A stretch of DNA of 50,013 nt from a candidate division FCPU426 bacterium (lineage in GTDB: Bacteria > Oederibacteriota > JAAXVQ01 > JAUVAV01). Location: NCBI GenBank assembly GCA_030591525.1, contig JAUVAV010000023.1:1-50013 (forward strand). The letters are read 5' to 3'. A program made the position numbers and the translations under genes. The notes beneath the pieces are model-generated. The model saw nothing but the letters and a program-made list of their open reading frames with translations, ran no database searches and had not been told where the DNA came from. This document shows positions 1-49,735 of this stretch, piece by piece (the first letter of the stretch is position 1; the number at the start of each line of letters is the position of its first letter).

Positions 1-808
1 CATTCCAGGCCGGCAAATAATTAAGTTTAATCCGCAGAGCCGCGGCCTGGATCTCGTCCAGGCGGGAGTTGAATCCGAGCTCAATATGGTAATACTTTTG
101 ATCCGCACCATGCTGACGCAGGCGGCGCAGCCGGGCGGCCAGGCGGGCATTATTCGTCAGCACCATGCCGGCATCGCCCAGAGCCCCAAGATTCTTGGTC
201 GGGAAAAACGAGAGACAGCCCATATCCCCCAGCGCGCCCACGGGCCGGCCGCGCCAGTGCGCGCCTATGGCCTGGGCCGCATCCTCGATTAAAGCCACTT
301 TGGCCTGGCGGGCTAGTTTTAGTAAGGCCGTCATATCCGCCGGCTGGCCGTAAAGATGTACCGGTATAATTGCCCGGGTTTTTTTAGTCATAAGCCGGCT
401 CACTTGCCCGGGATCCAGATTAAAGGTATCAGGTTCAATATCCGCCAATACCGGGGTGGCGCCGGCCAGCATAACTGCCGTGGCTGTGGCAATAAAACTA
501 AAATCCGGTATAATGACCTCATCCCCAGACCCAATATCCAAAGCCTTCATTGCCAGCACCAAAGCATCCGTGCCGGAATTAACCCCAATACCATAGCGCG
601 CTCTGCAAAAATCCGCCGCCTCGCGCTCCAGGGCCTCCACCTCTGGCCCCAGAATAAACCGGGAGCTCTCCAGCACCCGGCCTATGGCCTGCAACAAGGG
701 TTTTTTCAAAGCCCTGTGCTGCGCTGGTAAGTCGAGACATTTTACACTATTCTTTTTTGCCGACTGCCGGATCGGCTTTAGGTTCTGCTTTTTTGTCATT
801 TTTTTCAT
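1..808 (-). CDS. DegT/DnrJ/EryC1/StrS-type sugar aminotransferase, cut off at the window edge
   Basis: This is a PLP-dependent aminotransferase that would aminate a keto nucleotide sugar for surface polysaccharide synthesis. Only the N-terminal 269 residues are in the window; the C-terminus lies beyond base 1. Visible family features are the GVNSGTDAL segment near residues 76-83, IEDAAQ near 174-179 (cofactor-binding Asp), SFFPTKNLG near 200-208 with the PLP lysine at about 205, and GFNSRLDEIQAA near 245-256. The ATG at 808 has an AAAGGA site six bases upstream. The protein starts with about 23 basic residues before the usual CLDLPAQ beginning, which is slightly longer than typical. The exact sugar cannot be told from sequence alone. 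Confidence 0.93.
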   Translation of the reverse strand, partial: MKKMTKKQNLKPIRQSAKKNSVKCLDLPAQHRALKKPLLQAIGRVLESSRFILGPEVEALEREAADFCRARYGIGVNSGTDALVLAMKALDIGSGDEVIIPDFSFIATATAVMLAGATPVLADIEPDTFNLDPGQVSRLMTKKTRAIIPVHLYGQPADMTALLKLARQAKVALIEDAAQAIGAHWRGRPVGALGDMGCLSFFPTKNLGALGDAGMVLTNNARLAARLRRLRQHGADQKYYHIELGFNSRLDEIQAAALRIKLNYLPAWN

Positions 809-17838: not shown

Positions 17839-17930
17839 TTTTTCTCCAAACAATTTTGTGCCGGCTTTTAATATTGCATTAAATAAAACTTTATTCGACT
17901 TTGGCAAATTTAAGTTTTGCTTGCTTATTC

Positions 17931-18014
17931 GTCATTCCGGCGAAAGCCGGAATCCAGAAAAGCATTGTAATATAAGCAGTATGCGTCCTGGATTCCGGCT
18001 TTCGCCGGAATGAC
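17931..18014. repeat. Palindromic repeat family B, intact inverted copy
   Basis: Two perfect 27-bp arms (17931-17957 and 17988-18014) face each other across a 30-base spacer. The same unit appears degenerate at 3696 and as a single arm inside the FG-GAP gene at 48911-48937. It lies in the gap downstream of the GT2 gene at 18115 and could fold into a strong hairpin in its transcript. Confidence 0.92.
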
Positions 18015-18114
18015 ACCCTTAAAAAGCTATTATGACACAGCCTCTTTCGCCGGTATGATGGCAAAAACAAACGAAAAAGCAAATTTGTCAAAGTTGAAAC
18101 TTTATTTATTAAGC

Positions 18115-34829: not shown

Positions 34830-34922
34830 GGAGCCTGCGCAATTAGTCCAGAATTCAAGTATTCCCCTCCCTTGACGGGAGGGGAATTATTCATATCAAA
34901 ATCGGCTAATTGCTCAGGCTCC
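34830..34922. repeat. Palindromic repeat family A, 93-bp copy with internal hairpin
   Basis: The ends form 17-bp inverted repeats (GGAGCCTGCGCAATTAG and its complement with one mismatch). Inside, ATTCCCCTCCC and GGGAGGGGAAT form a perfect 11-bp stem around TTGAC. A CTAG abuts the left end. The element lies in the predicted 5' leader of the transcript for the gene at 32395. Confidence 0.88.
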
Positions 34923-34961
34923 CAGGATGTGCTTTTTTTATAAAGCAATAAATTAGGTGAA

Positions 34962-36895: not shown

Positions 36896-37027
36896 GGAGC
36901 CTGAGCAATTAGTTGCTCAGGCTCCAGAGCATTTGAGAGTAGATAGTAGAAATTAGATAAAATATCTCAAATGCGGTCTACTGTCTACTCTCTACTCTCA
37001 AAAAACCGACTAAATGCTCAGGCTCCT
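36896..37027. repeat. Palindromic repeat family A, full-length copy between convergent genes
   Basis: The element starts with a perfect 13-bp inverted repeat (36896-36925). It continues with nested stems: GCATTTGAGA (36929-36938) with TCTCAAATGC (36965-36974), and GAGAGTAGATAGTAG with a 14/15 match near 36978-37001. It closes with TGCTCAGGCTCC near 37015-37026. It fills the gap between the plus-strand gene ending at 36889 and the minus-strand gene ending at 37026, whose TAG stop codon overlaps its right edge. It could act as a two-way terminator, though no T-run follows the stems. Confidence 0.85.
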
Positions 37028-39335: not shown

Positions 39336-39409
39336 GTAGGGGCCGGCTTCCATGCCGGCCCATGGATTTAACCTCACACAAGCGGGCGGACATGGAAGTC
39401 CGCCCCTAC
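39336..39409. repeat. Pair of family C palindromes in tandem
   Basis: Two related units occur: 39336-39361 (GTAGGGGCCGGCTTCCATGC with complementary end) and 39384-39409 (GGGCGGACATGGAAGTCCGC, then CCCTAC). Together they look like one outer GTAGGGGC/GCCCCTAC pair with two different inner palindromes. They fill the 170-base gap between the DUF3467 gene and the GT-C fusion. Confidence 0.82.
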
Positions 39410-45131: not shown

Positions 45132-45208
45132 AGTCATCCCCTTCCGTATCCTGTAGAAGCAACGGCTGCGTCATCCGCACTATCAGTATATTTCGCATTT
45201 GCCGTGTG

Positions 45209-45236
45209 AAGGGGCGTTTAATAAAACGCCCCTTCA
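45209..45236. repeat. Family C palindrome, near-perfect
   Basis: GAAGGGGCGTTTAATAAAAC followed by GCCCCTTC is a 28-base palindrome with one central mismatch. It lies downstream of the FG-GAP gene. Confidence 0.85.
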
Positions 45237-45264
45237 TCTGGTTTTGACATTCACATGACGGGGT

Positions 45265-45292
45265 GTAGGGGCGACGCATGCGTCGCCCCTAC
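45265..45292. repeat. Family C palindrome, perfect
   Basis: GTAGGGGCGACGCA followed by its exact reverse complement. The same core (GGGCGACGCATGCGTCGCCC) occurs at 49562-49585 upstream of the FG-GAP gene, so the two flanks of this gene carry matching palindromes. Confidence 0.9.
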
Positions 45293-45335
45293 CTTGTAAA
45301 TCCACAGGTGGCCGGCATAGAAGCCAGCTCCTGCA

Positions 45336-48300
45336 TTACCTCACCAGCACTATCTTTCCGCGCGCCTTATGCCTTCCCGCCTCAAAATACACGAGATATG
45401 TTCCTGAACCTGCGTTTCCGCTCCCGTTCCAAATAATTTCATGCCTGCCAACATTGTAATACTCTAAACTTGAATGCATCAAACGCCCGGTTATATTATA
45501 AATCCGCAAATGCACTGACTCGGCTTGCTCAAGTTCAAATATTATTGAAGCGCTTTCTCCATGGGAAACGCGGACAACAGGATTATAAATTCTAAAAGAA
45601 AATCTTCCTCCCGGGATAGCGGGTGTATTTACCGGGGTATAGGTAGGCGTAGCCGTGGGCAAAGCCCATGGCCCGGTCCGGAAATCATGTTCTCCTTCCA
45701 GATAGCCTGAACATAGGCTGTACCACGGACTGTGCAGCAATCCATAAGGCGCATTAGACGGATCGTACAATAAACGTACGCGCCACCTGTAAGCCTGCAT
45801 GGGATTCAATCCGGTCAGCAGGAGTTCCATGTCCATGCCGCTTACGCCGATATCCTGGTAACTTGCCCCGGTTTGCAGATTAGAGCCCATAAAACCCGTG
45901 CCGGGCAAGGCTGTATCTACCTGGAGCCTGGCCCGGGTACGGCCCTGGCTGGATCTGGCCCAGAGCCTGATCCTGGCTTGCGTATTGGATGGAGAATAAG
46001 AGGCGGCGCAGGCCGGGCCGATAAGACTGGCTCCATCTGCCTTGACCTGCCTGGGACGCACACTTAGACCGCCAAATTCATTGCCATAATAAACATATGC
46101 TTGGCCTTCATATGCCTGCCCATTGTCATAATTTAGCGCGCCGCAGATAACATCCCCATATCCATCCCCATTTACGTCTCCTGCGCTTCCTACTGAATAG
46201 CCAAACCACGCATCTACCTGGTTGCTCTCGGCTGTCCAGGCCGGGGTCGCACTCAGTCCGCTTGCAGTTCCTAAGTACACATATGCTTGGCCTTCATTCG
46301 ACTGACCATTGTCATACTCATAGGCGCCGCAGATCACATCTCCATACCCATCCCCATTTACATCGCCTGCGCTTCCTACTGATCTGCCAAAATACGCGCC
46401 ATCCTGGTCGCTCTCGGCTGTCCAGGCCGGGGTTGTGCCAAGTCCACTTATAGATCCTACGTATACATACGCCCGGCCTTCATCAGTCTGACCATTGTCA
46501 TACTCATACGCGCCCACAATCACATCTCCATACCCATCACCATTTATGTCTCCCGCGCTGCCTACTGATCTGCCAAAATAGGCACTTGCCTGGCCGCTCT
46601 CTGCTGTCCAGGCCGGGGTTGTGTTAAGTCCGCTTGCTGATCCCAAATACACATATACCCGGCCTTCATCTCCCGTCCAAATGTCATAGTTATGCGCGCC
46701 TACAATCACATCCCCATACCCGTCCCCATTTACATCTCCTGCACTTGTTGCTGATATGCCAAAATTCGCACCTGCCTGGTCGCTTTCTGCTGTCCAGGCT
46801 GCGGTTGCGCCAAGTCCGCCGGCTGATCCCATGTATACATATGCCTGGCCTTCATCTGCCTGACCATTGTCATAACCATGCGCGCCCACAATTACATCTC
46901 CATATCCATCGCCATTTACATCTCCCGCGCTGCTTACTGAACAGCCAAACCACGCACTGGCCTGGCCGCTCTCTGCTTTCCAGGCGGGTGTTGTACTCAG
47001 GCCGCTTGCTGATCCCAAATACACATATGCTTGGCCTTCATCTACTTGCCCATTGTCATAACAATACGCACCGCAGATAACATCTCCATACCCATCACCA
47101 TTCACGTCGCCCGCGCTGCCTGCTGATACGCCAAACCACGCACTGGCCTGATCGCTCTCTTCTCTCCAAGCCGGAGTCGTGCCAAGTCCACTTATGGATC
47201 CTAAGTAAACATATGCTTGGCCTTCATTTGCCTGACCATTGTCATAACCATGCGCGCCGCAGATCACATCCCCATAACCATCTCCATTCAGATCTCCCGC
47301 GCTTCCTACTGAATGGCCAAACCACGCACTGGCCTGGTCGCTCTCAGCAATCCAGGCTGAGGCTGGGTTTAGTCCGCCGGCTGATCCTAAGTACACATAC
47401 GCCCGGCCTTCATTTGCCTGACCATTGTCATAACAATGTGCTCCCACAATCACATCTCCATACCCATCACCATTCACATCTCCTGCGCTGCCGGCTGAAT
47501 CGCCAAACCACGCCCCCCCCTGATCGCTCTCAACTGTCCAGGATGGAATTGCGCCAAGTCCTCCGGCTGATCCCAAGTACACATATGCCCGGCCTTCATC
47601 TGCCTGACCATTGTCATAACCGTGCGCGCCGCAGATCACATCTCCATAACCATCTCCATTTACGTCTCCGGCACTGCCTACGGATCTGCCAAAATACGCG
47701 CTTGCCTGGTCGCTCTCAGCAATCCAAGCCGGGGTCGTGCCAAGTCCACTCATAGATCCTAAGTAAACATGCGCCCGGCCTTCACCTGCCTGACCATTGT
47801 CATATTGATCTGCCCCTACGATCACATCTCCATACCCATCTCCATTTACGTCGCCTGCGCTTCCTACTGATCTGCCAAAATACGCGCTTGCCTGGTCGCT
47901 CTCGGCTGTCCATGCCGGCGCTGCGGCAAGTCCGCCGGCTGATCCCAAGTATACATATGCCCGGCCTTCACCTGCATGACCATTGTCATACAAATGCGCG
48001 CCGCAGATCACATCTCCATACCCATCTCCATTTACGTCGCCCGCGCTCCCTACTGATCTGCCAAATTGCGCATTGGCCTGGTCGCTCTCGGCGGTCCAGG
48101 CTGGAGTTGTGCTCAGTCCGCCGGCTGATCCCAAATATACATATGCCCGGCCTTCATTCGACTCACCATTGTCATAACTATCCGCGCCGCAGATCACATC
48201 TCCATAACCATCTCCATTCACATCTCCCGCGCTCCCTACTGAAAAACTAAAAATCGCTCCTGTCTGGTCGCTCTCAGCTGTCCAGGCCGGGGTTGCGCTC

Positions 48301-49538
48301 AGTCCGCCGGCTGATCCTAAGTACACATACGCACGGCCTTCATCTGTCTCACCATTGTCATACCAATACGCGCCGCAGATCACATCTCCATACCCATCTC
48401 CATTTACGTCGCCCGCGCTCCCTACTGATCTGCCAAAAAGCGCATTTGCCTGGTCGCTCTCGGCTGTCCAGTCCGCGGTTGTGCCAAGTCCGCCGGCTGA
48501 TCCTAAATATACATAGGCCCGGCCTTCACCCGGCTGACCATTATCATAACAATGTGCACCGCAGATCACATCCCCATACCCGTCTCCATTCACATCTCCC
48601 GCGCTGCTTACTGACCAGCCAAAATACTCTCCAGAATGGTCGCTCTCAGCGGTCCAGGCCGGGGTTGTCATTAAGGGGTCTATATATACCGGATACTCGG
48701 CTCGGTTATCATTATAGGTCAGGACAATGCAATTATTCTCCACGCGCATCCCGGCCCTCAGGCTTTTATTGCGCGCGTCCACTACTTTCAGTTGGTCATA
48801 GCGCATGACCACTGCCTGGTTCGCATCGCGCATCTCTATGGCTTTTTTGTCTTCGGTTAATTTCAGGATTAATCCGGTGACGGGTTGGGCGATAATGCAG
48901 ACGTGCTTTTCTGGATTCCGGCTTTCGCCGGAATGACGACAAACGCTTCCTTTTGGCCTATTGTGTATTACAAATCCCTGCTCTATGCCCTGCGCTTCAT
49001 TGGTATACCATTCACTTATGTCCTGGCGCGTATATTCCACTCGCGCGCCTCTGGCCTCTGGCTCTGCCGGCTTTACGCGCTTTAACGCACCCTGGCGGCC
49101 GAAATATTCGGTCTGCCAGAGGAATTTCCATTTTTTTGCCTGGCCGGCAGAAGCGCTTTCTGAGGGCAGGGCATGCCCTGCCCCTACACTTCCCCGGGAT
49201 TCCGCCCGCGGACCTACTTCCACACCGTTACGTTTGAAATAGGCGCGCAGGTTCTGCTTTCGGTTAGGTGCTTGCAATACTCCCTTGACGCCTGCTTTTA
49301 CCTGATACTCCTCAGCCGCTATCCGTGCCTGCACCTGGGCCAGCCAGTTCTGGTTAGCTCCGGACTTTATGGCCGCGGCATCTATCTCTGCTCCCGTGGA
49401 TGTAGAGACGGGCTTTAAACCCGCCCCTACCATACTATTGTGCGCATTACCATTATGCATAATGTGCCAGGTCAATAATCCTGCTGCGGCAAGTACCACC
49501 AACCCTGCGGCATAACATATTTTATTCAGATTTTTCAT
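45336..49538 (-). CDS. Large secreted FG-GAP repeat protein with C-terminal FlgD-like domain
   Basis: The 1400-residue protein has a signal peptide (about 1-28), an N-terminal region of about 300 residues, 14 FG-GAP repeats of exactly 62 residues, and a linker. It ends in a beta-sandwich resembling FlgD/secretion-type tails (VHLRIYNITGRLMHSSLEYY... SGTYLVYFEAGRHKARGKIVLVR). Each repeat carries DVNGDGYGDV, a calcium-binding loop, and EGRAYVYLGS. The ATG at 49538 follows AAGGGG by six bases; a longer form to 49595 has no site. Three dispersed repeats are read in frame in the N-terminal region. FG-GAP propellers act in adhesion in integrins and many secreted bacterial proteins. Confidence 0.92.
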   Translation of the reverse strand: MKNLNKICYAAGLVVLAAAGLLTWHIMHNGNAHNSMVGAGLKPVSTSTGAEIDAAAIKSGANQNWLAQVQARIAAEEYQVKAGVKGVLQAPNRKQNLRAYFKRNGVEVGPRAESRGSVGAGHALPSESASAGQAKKWKFLWQTEYFGRQGALKRVKPAEPEARGARVEYTRQDISEWYTNEAQGIEQGFVIHNRPKGSVCRHSGESRNPEKHVCIIAQPVTGLILKLTEDKKAIEMRDANQAVVMRYDQLKVVDARNKSLRAGMRVENNCIVLTYNDNRAEYPVYIDPLMTTPAWTAESDHSGEYFGWSVSSAGDVNGDGYGDVICGAHCYDNGQPGEGRAYVYLGSAGGLGTTADWTAESDQANALFGRSVGSAGDVNGDGYGDVICGAYWYDNGETDEGRAYVYLGSAGGLSATPAWTAESDQTGAIFSFSVGSAGDVNGDGYGDVICGADSYDNGESNEGRAYVYLGSAGGLSTTPAWTAESDQANAQFGRSVGSAGDVNGDGYGDVICGAHLYDNGHAGEGRAYVYLGSAGGLAAAPAWTAESDQASAYFGRSVGSAGDVNGDGYGDVIVGADQYDNGQAGEGRAHVYLGSMSGLGTTPAWIAESDQASAYFGRSVGSAGDVNGDGYGDVICGAHGYDNGQADEGRAYVYLGSAGGLGAIPSWTVESDQGGAWFGDSAGSAGDVNGDGYGDVIVGAHCYDNGQANEGRAYVYLGSAGGLNPASAWIAESDQASAWFGHSVGSAGDLNGDGYGDVICGAHGYDNGQANEGQAYVYLGSISGLGTTPAWREESDQASAWFGVSAGSAGDVNGDGYGDVICGAYCYDNGQVDEGQAYVYLGSASGLSTTPAWKAESGQASAWFGCSVSSAGDVNGDGYGDVIVGAHGYDNGQADEGQAYVYMGSAGGLGATAAWTAESDQAGANFGISATSAGDVNGDGYGDVIVGAHNYDIWTGDEGRVYVYLGSASGLNTTPAWTAESGQASAYFGRSVGSAGDINGDGYGDVIVGAYEYDNGQTDEGRAYVYVGSISGLGTTPAWTAESDQDGAYFGRSVGSAGDVNGDGYGDVICGAYEYDNGQSNEGQAYVYLGTASGLSATPAWTAESNQVDAWFGYSVGSAGDVNGDGYGDVICGALNYDNGQAYEGQAYVYYGNEFGGLSVRPRQVKADGASLIGPACAASYSPSNTQARIRLWARSSQGRTRARLQVDTALPGTGFMGSNLQTGASYQDIGVSGMDMELLLTGLNPMQAYRWRVRLLYDPSNAPYGLLHSPWYSLCSGYLEGEHDFRTGPWALPTATPTYTPVNTPAIPGGRFSFRIYNPVVRVSHGESASIIFELEQAESVHLRIYNITGRLMHSSLEYYNVGRHEIIWNGSGNAGSGTYLVYFEAGRHKARGKIVLVR
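46065..48596 (-). repeat. Fourteen 186-bp tandem repeats within the FG-GAP gene
   Basis: Units begin at 48596 and step down by exactly 186 bases to 46178 (checked at units 1, 7 and 14), so the array has no net insertion or deletion; the last unit is partial. Unit sequences differ mostly at variable residues after YDNG and in the xx-FG motif. A partial leading unit lies just upstream (TAESDHSGEYFGW). Confidence 0.95.
48911..48937. repeat. Family B repeat arm inside the FG-GAP coding region
   Basis: This 27-base arm is identical to the right arm at 17988-18014. On the minus strand it is read in frame within the segment RHSGESRNPEK and keeps the reading frame open. Confidence 0.93.
49164..49187. 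repeat. Family C palindrome inside the FG-GAP coding region
   Basis: GGGCAGGGCATGCCCTGCCC plus CCTAC, read in frame as part of VGAGHALPSE. The left GTAG end is missing, so this copy has been trimmed or mutated. Confidence 0.85.
49402..49430. repeat. Family C palindrome inside the FG-GAP coding region
   Basis: GTAGAGACGGGCTTTAAACC followed by CGCCCCTAC, a near-perfect palindrome read in frame as VGAGLKPVST, just after the signal peptide. Confidence 0.87.
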
Positions 49539-49561
49539 AGACATCCCCTTCTTTATCCTTT

Positions 49562-49585
49562 GGGCGACGCATGCGTCGCCCCTAC
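49562..49585. repeat. Family C palindrome upstream of the FG-GAP gene
   Basis: GGGCGACGCATGCGTCGCCC plus CCTAC, the same core as 45265-45292. It lies between the FG-GAP ribosome site and the conserved upstream block at 49590-49626. Confidence 0.88.
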
Positions 49586-49647
49586 ATACCCTCACTACCA
49601 GTATATTTCACATTTGCCGTGTGCAGGGCTGACACACACGCCTGCCT

Positions 49648-49735
49648 CTACCTCACCAGCACTCTCTTTCCGCGCGCCTTATGCCGTCCCACCTCAAAAT
49701 AACGCGAGATATGTTCCTGATCCCGCCTTTATCCT
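49648..49735 (-). pseudogene. C-terminal remnant of another FG-GAP/FlgD-tail gene, frameshifted
   Basis: The segment closely matches the 3' end of the intact gene (45336-45425). On the minus strand it ends EVGRHKARGKRVLVR and TAG, against EAGRHKARGKIVLVR and TAA in the intact gene. One extra base after GSGTYLA shifts the frame, and similarity fades beyond about 49735. It is the tail of a former upstream copy. Confidence 0.78.

Follow-up and report, generated by a model that had tools for sequence, protein, structure and literature searches.

REP elements lying inside genes and read in frame were described by Di Nocera et al. 2013 (PMC3733652), who found intragenic CGTC-1 and GTAG REPs, sometimes two per gene, and proposed flexible linkers or loops as their hosts. 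At roughly one position, the recB genes of Xanthomonas carry REPs that differ from one another (PMC3733652). Two other systems are comparable. Rickettsia palindromic elements (RPE, Ogata et al.) are, as the cited accounts portray them, palindromic repeats inserted into many ORFs with the frame preserved, where they are presumed to be tolerated (PMC10969869, PMC3733652). In the ERIC/RU intragenic fusions of enterobacteria, small mobile sequences supply peptides of ORFs (Delihas 2007, PMC2759123).

Here, we describe a genetic locus of an uncultured bacterium in which three copies of dispersed palindromes lie in frame within the first 640 nt of a single gene encoding a secreted FG-GAP protein. 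A sequence-only reading had placed a family B arm (48911-48937) and two palindromes (49164-49187 and 49402-49430) in one gene; all of these are present, and all share one open frame. We present evidence that the three segments are, with high probability, non-autonomous REP-type mobile palindromes, in-frame insertions of which survive in tolerant loops of the protein. Furthermore, we compare the gene with its paralogues and orthologues, which carry other elements in the same loops or none at all.

Results

The window, that is, the whole stretch of DNA analyzed (50,013 nt), is the entire contig C46 of a 2.70-Mb genome assembled in 91 contigs. The closest relatives of this genome are G001, a Candidatus Firestonebacteria MAG of the same genus (corresponding locus, L099), and G005, bacterium RS_6_11, which belongs to a different genus of the same family (corresponding locus, L098). 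The FG-GAP gene occupies 4.2 kb of the minus strand (45336-49538) and encodes a secreted, beta-propeller-type protein of 1400 residues composed, in order, of an N-terminal hydrophobic (signal or anchor) helix, a beta-rich domain of ~230 residues, FG-GAP repeats, and a Por_Secre-like tail. PF01839 matches the protein in 14 stretches (E 4.9e-110), and at the DNA level the repeats form thirteen 186-bp units starting at 46090. The tail resembles a T9SS sorting domain at a sub-threshold score (TIGR04183, 20 bits vs a cut-off of 23 bits). Upstream, the reading frame stays open to a GTG at 49595. The ATG at 49538 is most likely the true start, since a GGGG six bases ahead of it offers a better ribosome-binding site and since it agrees with the paralogue starts. 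With translation beginning there, a fourth GTAGGGGC palindrome, GTAGGGGCGACGCATGCGTCGCCC (49558-49585, minus strand), positioned just upstream of the ribosome-binding site, falls in the 5' leader and is therefore probably untranslated; the leader of the paralogue C67 has no palindrome at the corresponding place. The 3' end of the gene, together with the following intergenic DNA, is duplicated upstream of the gene (45175-45389 and 49590-49701, 90-94% identity), and this duplicated, frame-broken tail is a relic of a tandem paralogue.

The window gene was scored against a library of 33 repeat sequences, all of them seen in this genome and its relatives. Several other library consensuses (C7/R1, A1, A2, and C6) were guesses and had no part in this scoring; R1 was later found exactly in the genome. 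Three sites stood out, with z-scores of 8.7 (site 3, 28/28 positions), 7.6 (site 1, 26/29), and 6.6 (site 2, 23/28), against a highest value of 5.3 among 20 codon-shuffled versions of the gene. Elsewhere in the 4.2-kb gene no element match rose above the shuffled background, the next best z being 4.4. Site 1 (49402-49430, minus strand) is an imperfect GTAGGGGC-type palindrome, GTAGGGGCGGGTTTAAAGCCCGTCTCTAC on the gene strand, the 26 matches being to the genomic repeat GTAGGGGCGGGTTTAAAACCCGCCCCTAC. It is read as VGAGLKPVST (residues 37-46) between the N-terminal helix and the domain and so contains the peptide VGAGLKPV that had been picked out from the sequence. Site 2 (49160-49187, minus strand), also of GTAGGGGC type, contains a 20-nt perfect dyad, GGGCAGGGCATGCCCTGCCC, within 49164-49187; its tag at the gene-strand 3' end is degraded. 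It is read as VGAGHALPS from residue 118, in a loop between strands 105-110 and 139-141. Site 3 (48904-48939, minus strand) is a 36-nt CGTC-1-type REP, TCGTCATTCCGGCGAAAGCCGGAATCCAGAAAAGCA, that sits between GTTTG and CGTCTGC and is read as CRHSGESRNPEKH (residues 200-211) in a loop between strands 184-191 and 213-217. The length of this insert is a multiple of three (12 codons), and the frame used is open. Its B arm (48911-48937) is identical to a genome repeat at 27/27 positions, and the whole insert is identical, 36/36, to an intergenic copy at 17929-17964. This copy, which the site-3 insert matches best, is the left half of a head-to-head dimer of the B element (17929-18015, plus strand).

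Because the repeats are short and the assembly is in 91 contigs, chance resemblance or an assembly artefact has to be weighed. The excess of all three z-scores over the shuffled versions and the perfect identity at B speak against it, as do the collinearity of the orthologues on both sides and the recurrence of site 1 in the independently assembled L098 and L099; we give this explanation almost no credence.

The B element has the full anatomy of a CGTC-1 REP, CGTC|ATTCCGGC|GAAA|GCCGGAAT|CCA, comprising the tag, an 8-bp stem starting with AT, a 4-nt loop, and an unpaired CCA tail. Its genomic copies are mostly head-to-head dimers, with an inverted partner a few tens of nucleotides on, and the copy in the gene is a single half of such a dimer. 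Sites 1 and 2 do not have the unpaired tag at one end that marks GTAG REPs, because in the consensus GTAGGGGC..GCCCCTAC the GTAG pairs with CTAC. Judged by their sequence, the inserts are most likely one CGTC-1 REP (site 3) and two fully palindromic GTAGGGGC elements (sites 1 and 2), and the latter could have arisen by collapse of head-to-head dimers of the genome's canonical GTAG REPs. A canonical GTAG REP head-to-head dimer, with a GTAG tag, an 8-bp stem, and a TTCCAT loop, is present in the window at 39336-39408, and the genome contains many such dimers.

Genome-wide, perfect GTAGGGGC..GCCCCTAC palindromes, which have one of several cores, number 97, against two with the reversed pattern, and exact B cores number 19, against none for the reversed-pattern control. 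Palindromes with the same ends as GTAGGGGC..GCCCCTAC are found in most genomes of the same family and order. A relaxed scan covered 1.21 Mb (60 stretches plus the window, 45% of the genome) with 501 ORFs of at least 300 residues, and it returned 251 element copies vs 4 in reversed-sequence controls. Most copies are intergenic (196), 33 run across an ORF end, 13 lie in short ORFs, and 4 are near the ends of long ORFs. Only five lie well inside ORFs of at least 300 residues: three in the window FG-GAP gene and two in its paralogue C14. The two adjacent C14 copies are perhaps a single compound insertion. If so, and with 0.8 Mb of long coding DNA as the possible target, a single event of this kind would hit the N-terminal region of a paralogue with a chance of ~0.001, an estimate that omits the window gene, which was chosen for carrying elements.

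The palindrome GTAGGGGCGTTTAATTAAACGCCCCTAC, with core GTTTAATTAAAC, is among the commonest in the sample and contains a stop in all six frames; it is absent from the interior of the FG-GAP gene, where each of the elements present has at least one open frame. This is what the purging of frame-breaking insertions predicts. Another high-copy family, the GGAG-ended palindrome GGAGCCTGAGCAATTAGTTGCTCAGGCTCC, occurs in the window at 891-949, 34906-34925, and 36896-36954, and no copy of it lies wholly within an ORF in the sampled sequence. Two further ORFs involve repeats. The 150-residue ORF at L082 4619-5068 is built mostly of palindromic repeats and is probably a spurious call over a repeat cluster, and the last 11-12 codons of a 340-residue ORF at L085 9761-10780 come from a canonical GTAG REP (VGADFHVRPSV).

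An AlphaFold2 model of the N-terminal part of the window protein (18-sequence alignment, pTM 0.65) has three low-confidence stretches in its first 298 residues, 30-51 and 114-132 (both with pLDDT<50) and 200-203; the low pLDDT at the inserts is due in part to the few homologues aligned there. The inserts, at residues 37-46, 118-127, and 200-211, contain no strand or helix residues in this model, and the chance that three such stretches would be free of secondary structure is ~0.004. All three sites lie in predicted loops. A search of the PDB with the N-terminal model gave weak matches only, to beta-sandwich domains of GH92/PL33 enzymes (TM ~0.3).

Within the same genome, two paralogues share the N-terminal region, C67 at 68% identity and C14 at 57%, and related copies occur in G001, G005, and G002. 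In five homologues from two genera (the window gene, C67, C14, G005, and G001), element-derived sequence occurs only at the same three places, and the types of element at a given site differ among the homologues; the G002 copies have no element match above background. Between the inserts lies a conserved beta-rich domain with the motifs PNR, EWYxN, G(I/L)EQG, and YPxxIDP, which is present in Planctomycetota, Acidobacteriota, and others, several phyla in which it has no inserts; in distant homologues from other phyla, sites 2 and 3 are short linkers. The suggestion that a segment of intergenic DNA had been recruited as coding sequence falls on this evidence. In its broader form, it derives the N-terminal region from recruited intergenic DNA, or from a mis-called start, the repeats having become coding together with their surroundings. 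The intergenic-type palindrome in the 5' leader (49558-49585), which the GTG-started ORF crosses, lends this some color, but it is refuted by the homologues and we consider it extremely improbable. In a distant Omnitrophota homologue (L114 2645-2690), yet another palindromic repeat, CCCCCTTACTAAGGGGGG, is read as PSPLLRGDQGG in a neighboring linker of the same domain, and it recurs at several further places in that genome.

Site 3 is a clean insertion and allows the comparison of filled and empty versions that the sequence-only reading had called for. The CGTC REP occupies it in the window gene, and G001 and G005 are empty there. Window KGSV-C[36-nt insert]VCII aligns with G005 KGTSRICII, and removal of the insert leaves KGSVCVCII, of the same length. 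In the models, the window loop spans 21 residues at low confidence, whereas in G005 a tight 9-residue turn (pLDDT ~95) connects strands 181-188 and 198-202. In C14, the site holds an element of canonical GTAG REP form, GTAG+GGGCGGGC-CTCTGT-TCCCGCCC, followed by a second, less certain palindrome, and C67 has a damaged version of the C14 insert; since the sampled sequence yields no exact match to consensus A1 (GTAGAGACGCGATTAATCGCGTCTCTAC), the assignment of the second half of this insert is weaker than that of the first. Site 2 has different, mostly decayed elements in the homologues, that of G005 resembling an element of its own genome (22/28). A tree of the domain, built after removal of the columns that hold the site-2 and site-3 inserts, groups the window gene with G005 and G001 (95/100). 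On the simplest reading, the site-3 CGTC REP would therefore be younger than the split of the window lineage from G005 and G001, and the site-1 element older than the split from C67.

Site 1 is filled in the window gene, C67, G001, and G005, always at the same position and in the same frame (VGAGFKPA and variants). The peptide is not conserved apart from the repeat; the site-1 orthologues keep both. C14 matches the element at 11/29 positions (a loss or a decayed copy). The C67 and G001 copies agree at 27/30 positions, against 62% for the rest of the gene (nominal P 7.5e-4, uncorrected, with ten pairs compared), a similarity that could come from gene conversion, repeated insertion, or selection. 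The last of these bears on the idea that the inserts are domesticated, the peptide or an mRNA or DNA hairpin having a function (in stability, translation pausing, or paralogue recombination) for which it is kept by selection. The persistence of site 1, with its frame intact, in four homologues that span two genera, the similarity of the C67 and G001 copies, and the perfect 29-nt palindrome of C67 all favor it. Differences among the site-1 copies, however, mostly alter the amino acid (F/L, P/L, A/V, P/S/L, G/K), which argues against selection on the peptide; moreover, the G005 copy has decayed and lost its palindrome, C14 lacks the element, and the elements at sites 2 and 3 vary among paralogues. 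We regard domestication as unlikely. The coding palindromes might also serve as homology or hairpin handles for recombination and gene conversion among the FG-GAP paralogues, diversifying exposed N-terminal loops. Such handles would be expected to appear as a C67-G001 similarity at site 1 above the level of the gene and as different elements stacked in the same loops, although we judge their operation here improbable.

Discussion

The three segments are in-frame copies of genomic repeats and fall in predicted loops; in orthologues they are absent or different, and the same loops of the paralogues carry other elements. We favor in-frame insertion of mobile palindromes into tolerant loops. Insertion would be untargeted, and most hits in genes would be purged; the survivors would be those with a length that is a multiple of three and an open frame, in an exposed loop of a tolerant secreted protein. 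After insertion, the elements would drift by point mutation with the frame maintained, and they appear, from sequence, to be translated into additional, harmless peptides. The proposal that insertions were tolerated by a flexible linker holds as regards tolerance, given the filled and empty orthologues, the loops, and the varied elements, but there are three separate loops and not one linker. Likewise, the same loops have been hit repeatedly, as a hot spot would have it, but there is no sign of targeted insertion, and the pattern is best read as tolerance plus selection.

Copy number and one empty site suggest that the elements are mobile. The likeliest candidate for the mobilizer of the GTAG elements is one of the four Y1/HUH (Y1_Tnp, RAYT-like) transposases that the genome encodes. 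Two observations fit less well. No library element was found in the 2.2-3.3-kb loci of the four transposase genes, so that none is flanked by elements within ~1.5 kb in the manner of a RAYT association, and the site-1 similarity between C67 and G001, above that of the gene, is poorly predicted by passive drift.

The locus represents a natural experiment in the passage of selfish DNA into protein, with several element types, three loops, and filled and empty versions in one small gene family, and with one insertion (site 1) inherited across genera. It reveals which loops of the domain accept extra residues. It also serves as a warning: when a predicted protein contains a stretch like RHSGESRNPE or VGAGFKPA, this can be a translated REP.

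Intragenic REPs and their survival in loops are already known (PMC3733652), and older still, as far as the cited account extends, are the in-frame palindromes of Rickettsia (PMC10969869). What is fresh here is that the same three loops recur as hosts throughout a paralogous family, an unusually clear case, and an uncultured lineage now joins those with REP-decorated proteins. Element B shares the anatomy of the REPs of PMC3733652 (CGTC, 8-bp stem, 4-nt loop, CCA), whereas in the GTAGGGGC palindromes self-complementarity is complete and extends to the tag. The targets of those REPs include many DNA-repair genes in other phyla; here the target is a family of secreted FG-GAP proteins of a Firestonebacteria lineage, and, unlike those cases, three loops have been hit repeatedly in paralogues and orthologues. 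Placement in frame in protein genes is shared with the RPE, which, in the cited accounts, are ~150 bp long with their own conserved peptide, in contrast to elements of 28-36 nt whose families are read differently; by the same accounts, nearly half of the first reported Rickettsia copies were genic, against ~2% lying well inside long ORFs here. Finally, the ERIC/RU fusions are 103-168 bp long and lie at C-terminal regions of superfamily proteins (PMC2759123), whereas the elements described here occupy loops inside a conserved domain.
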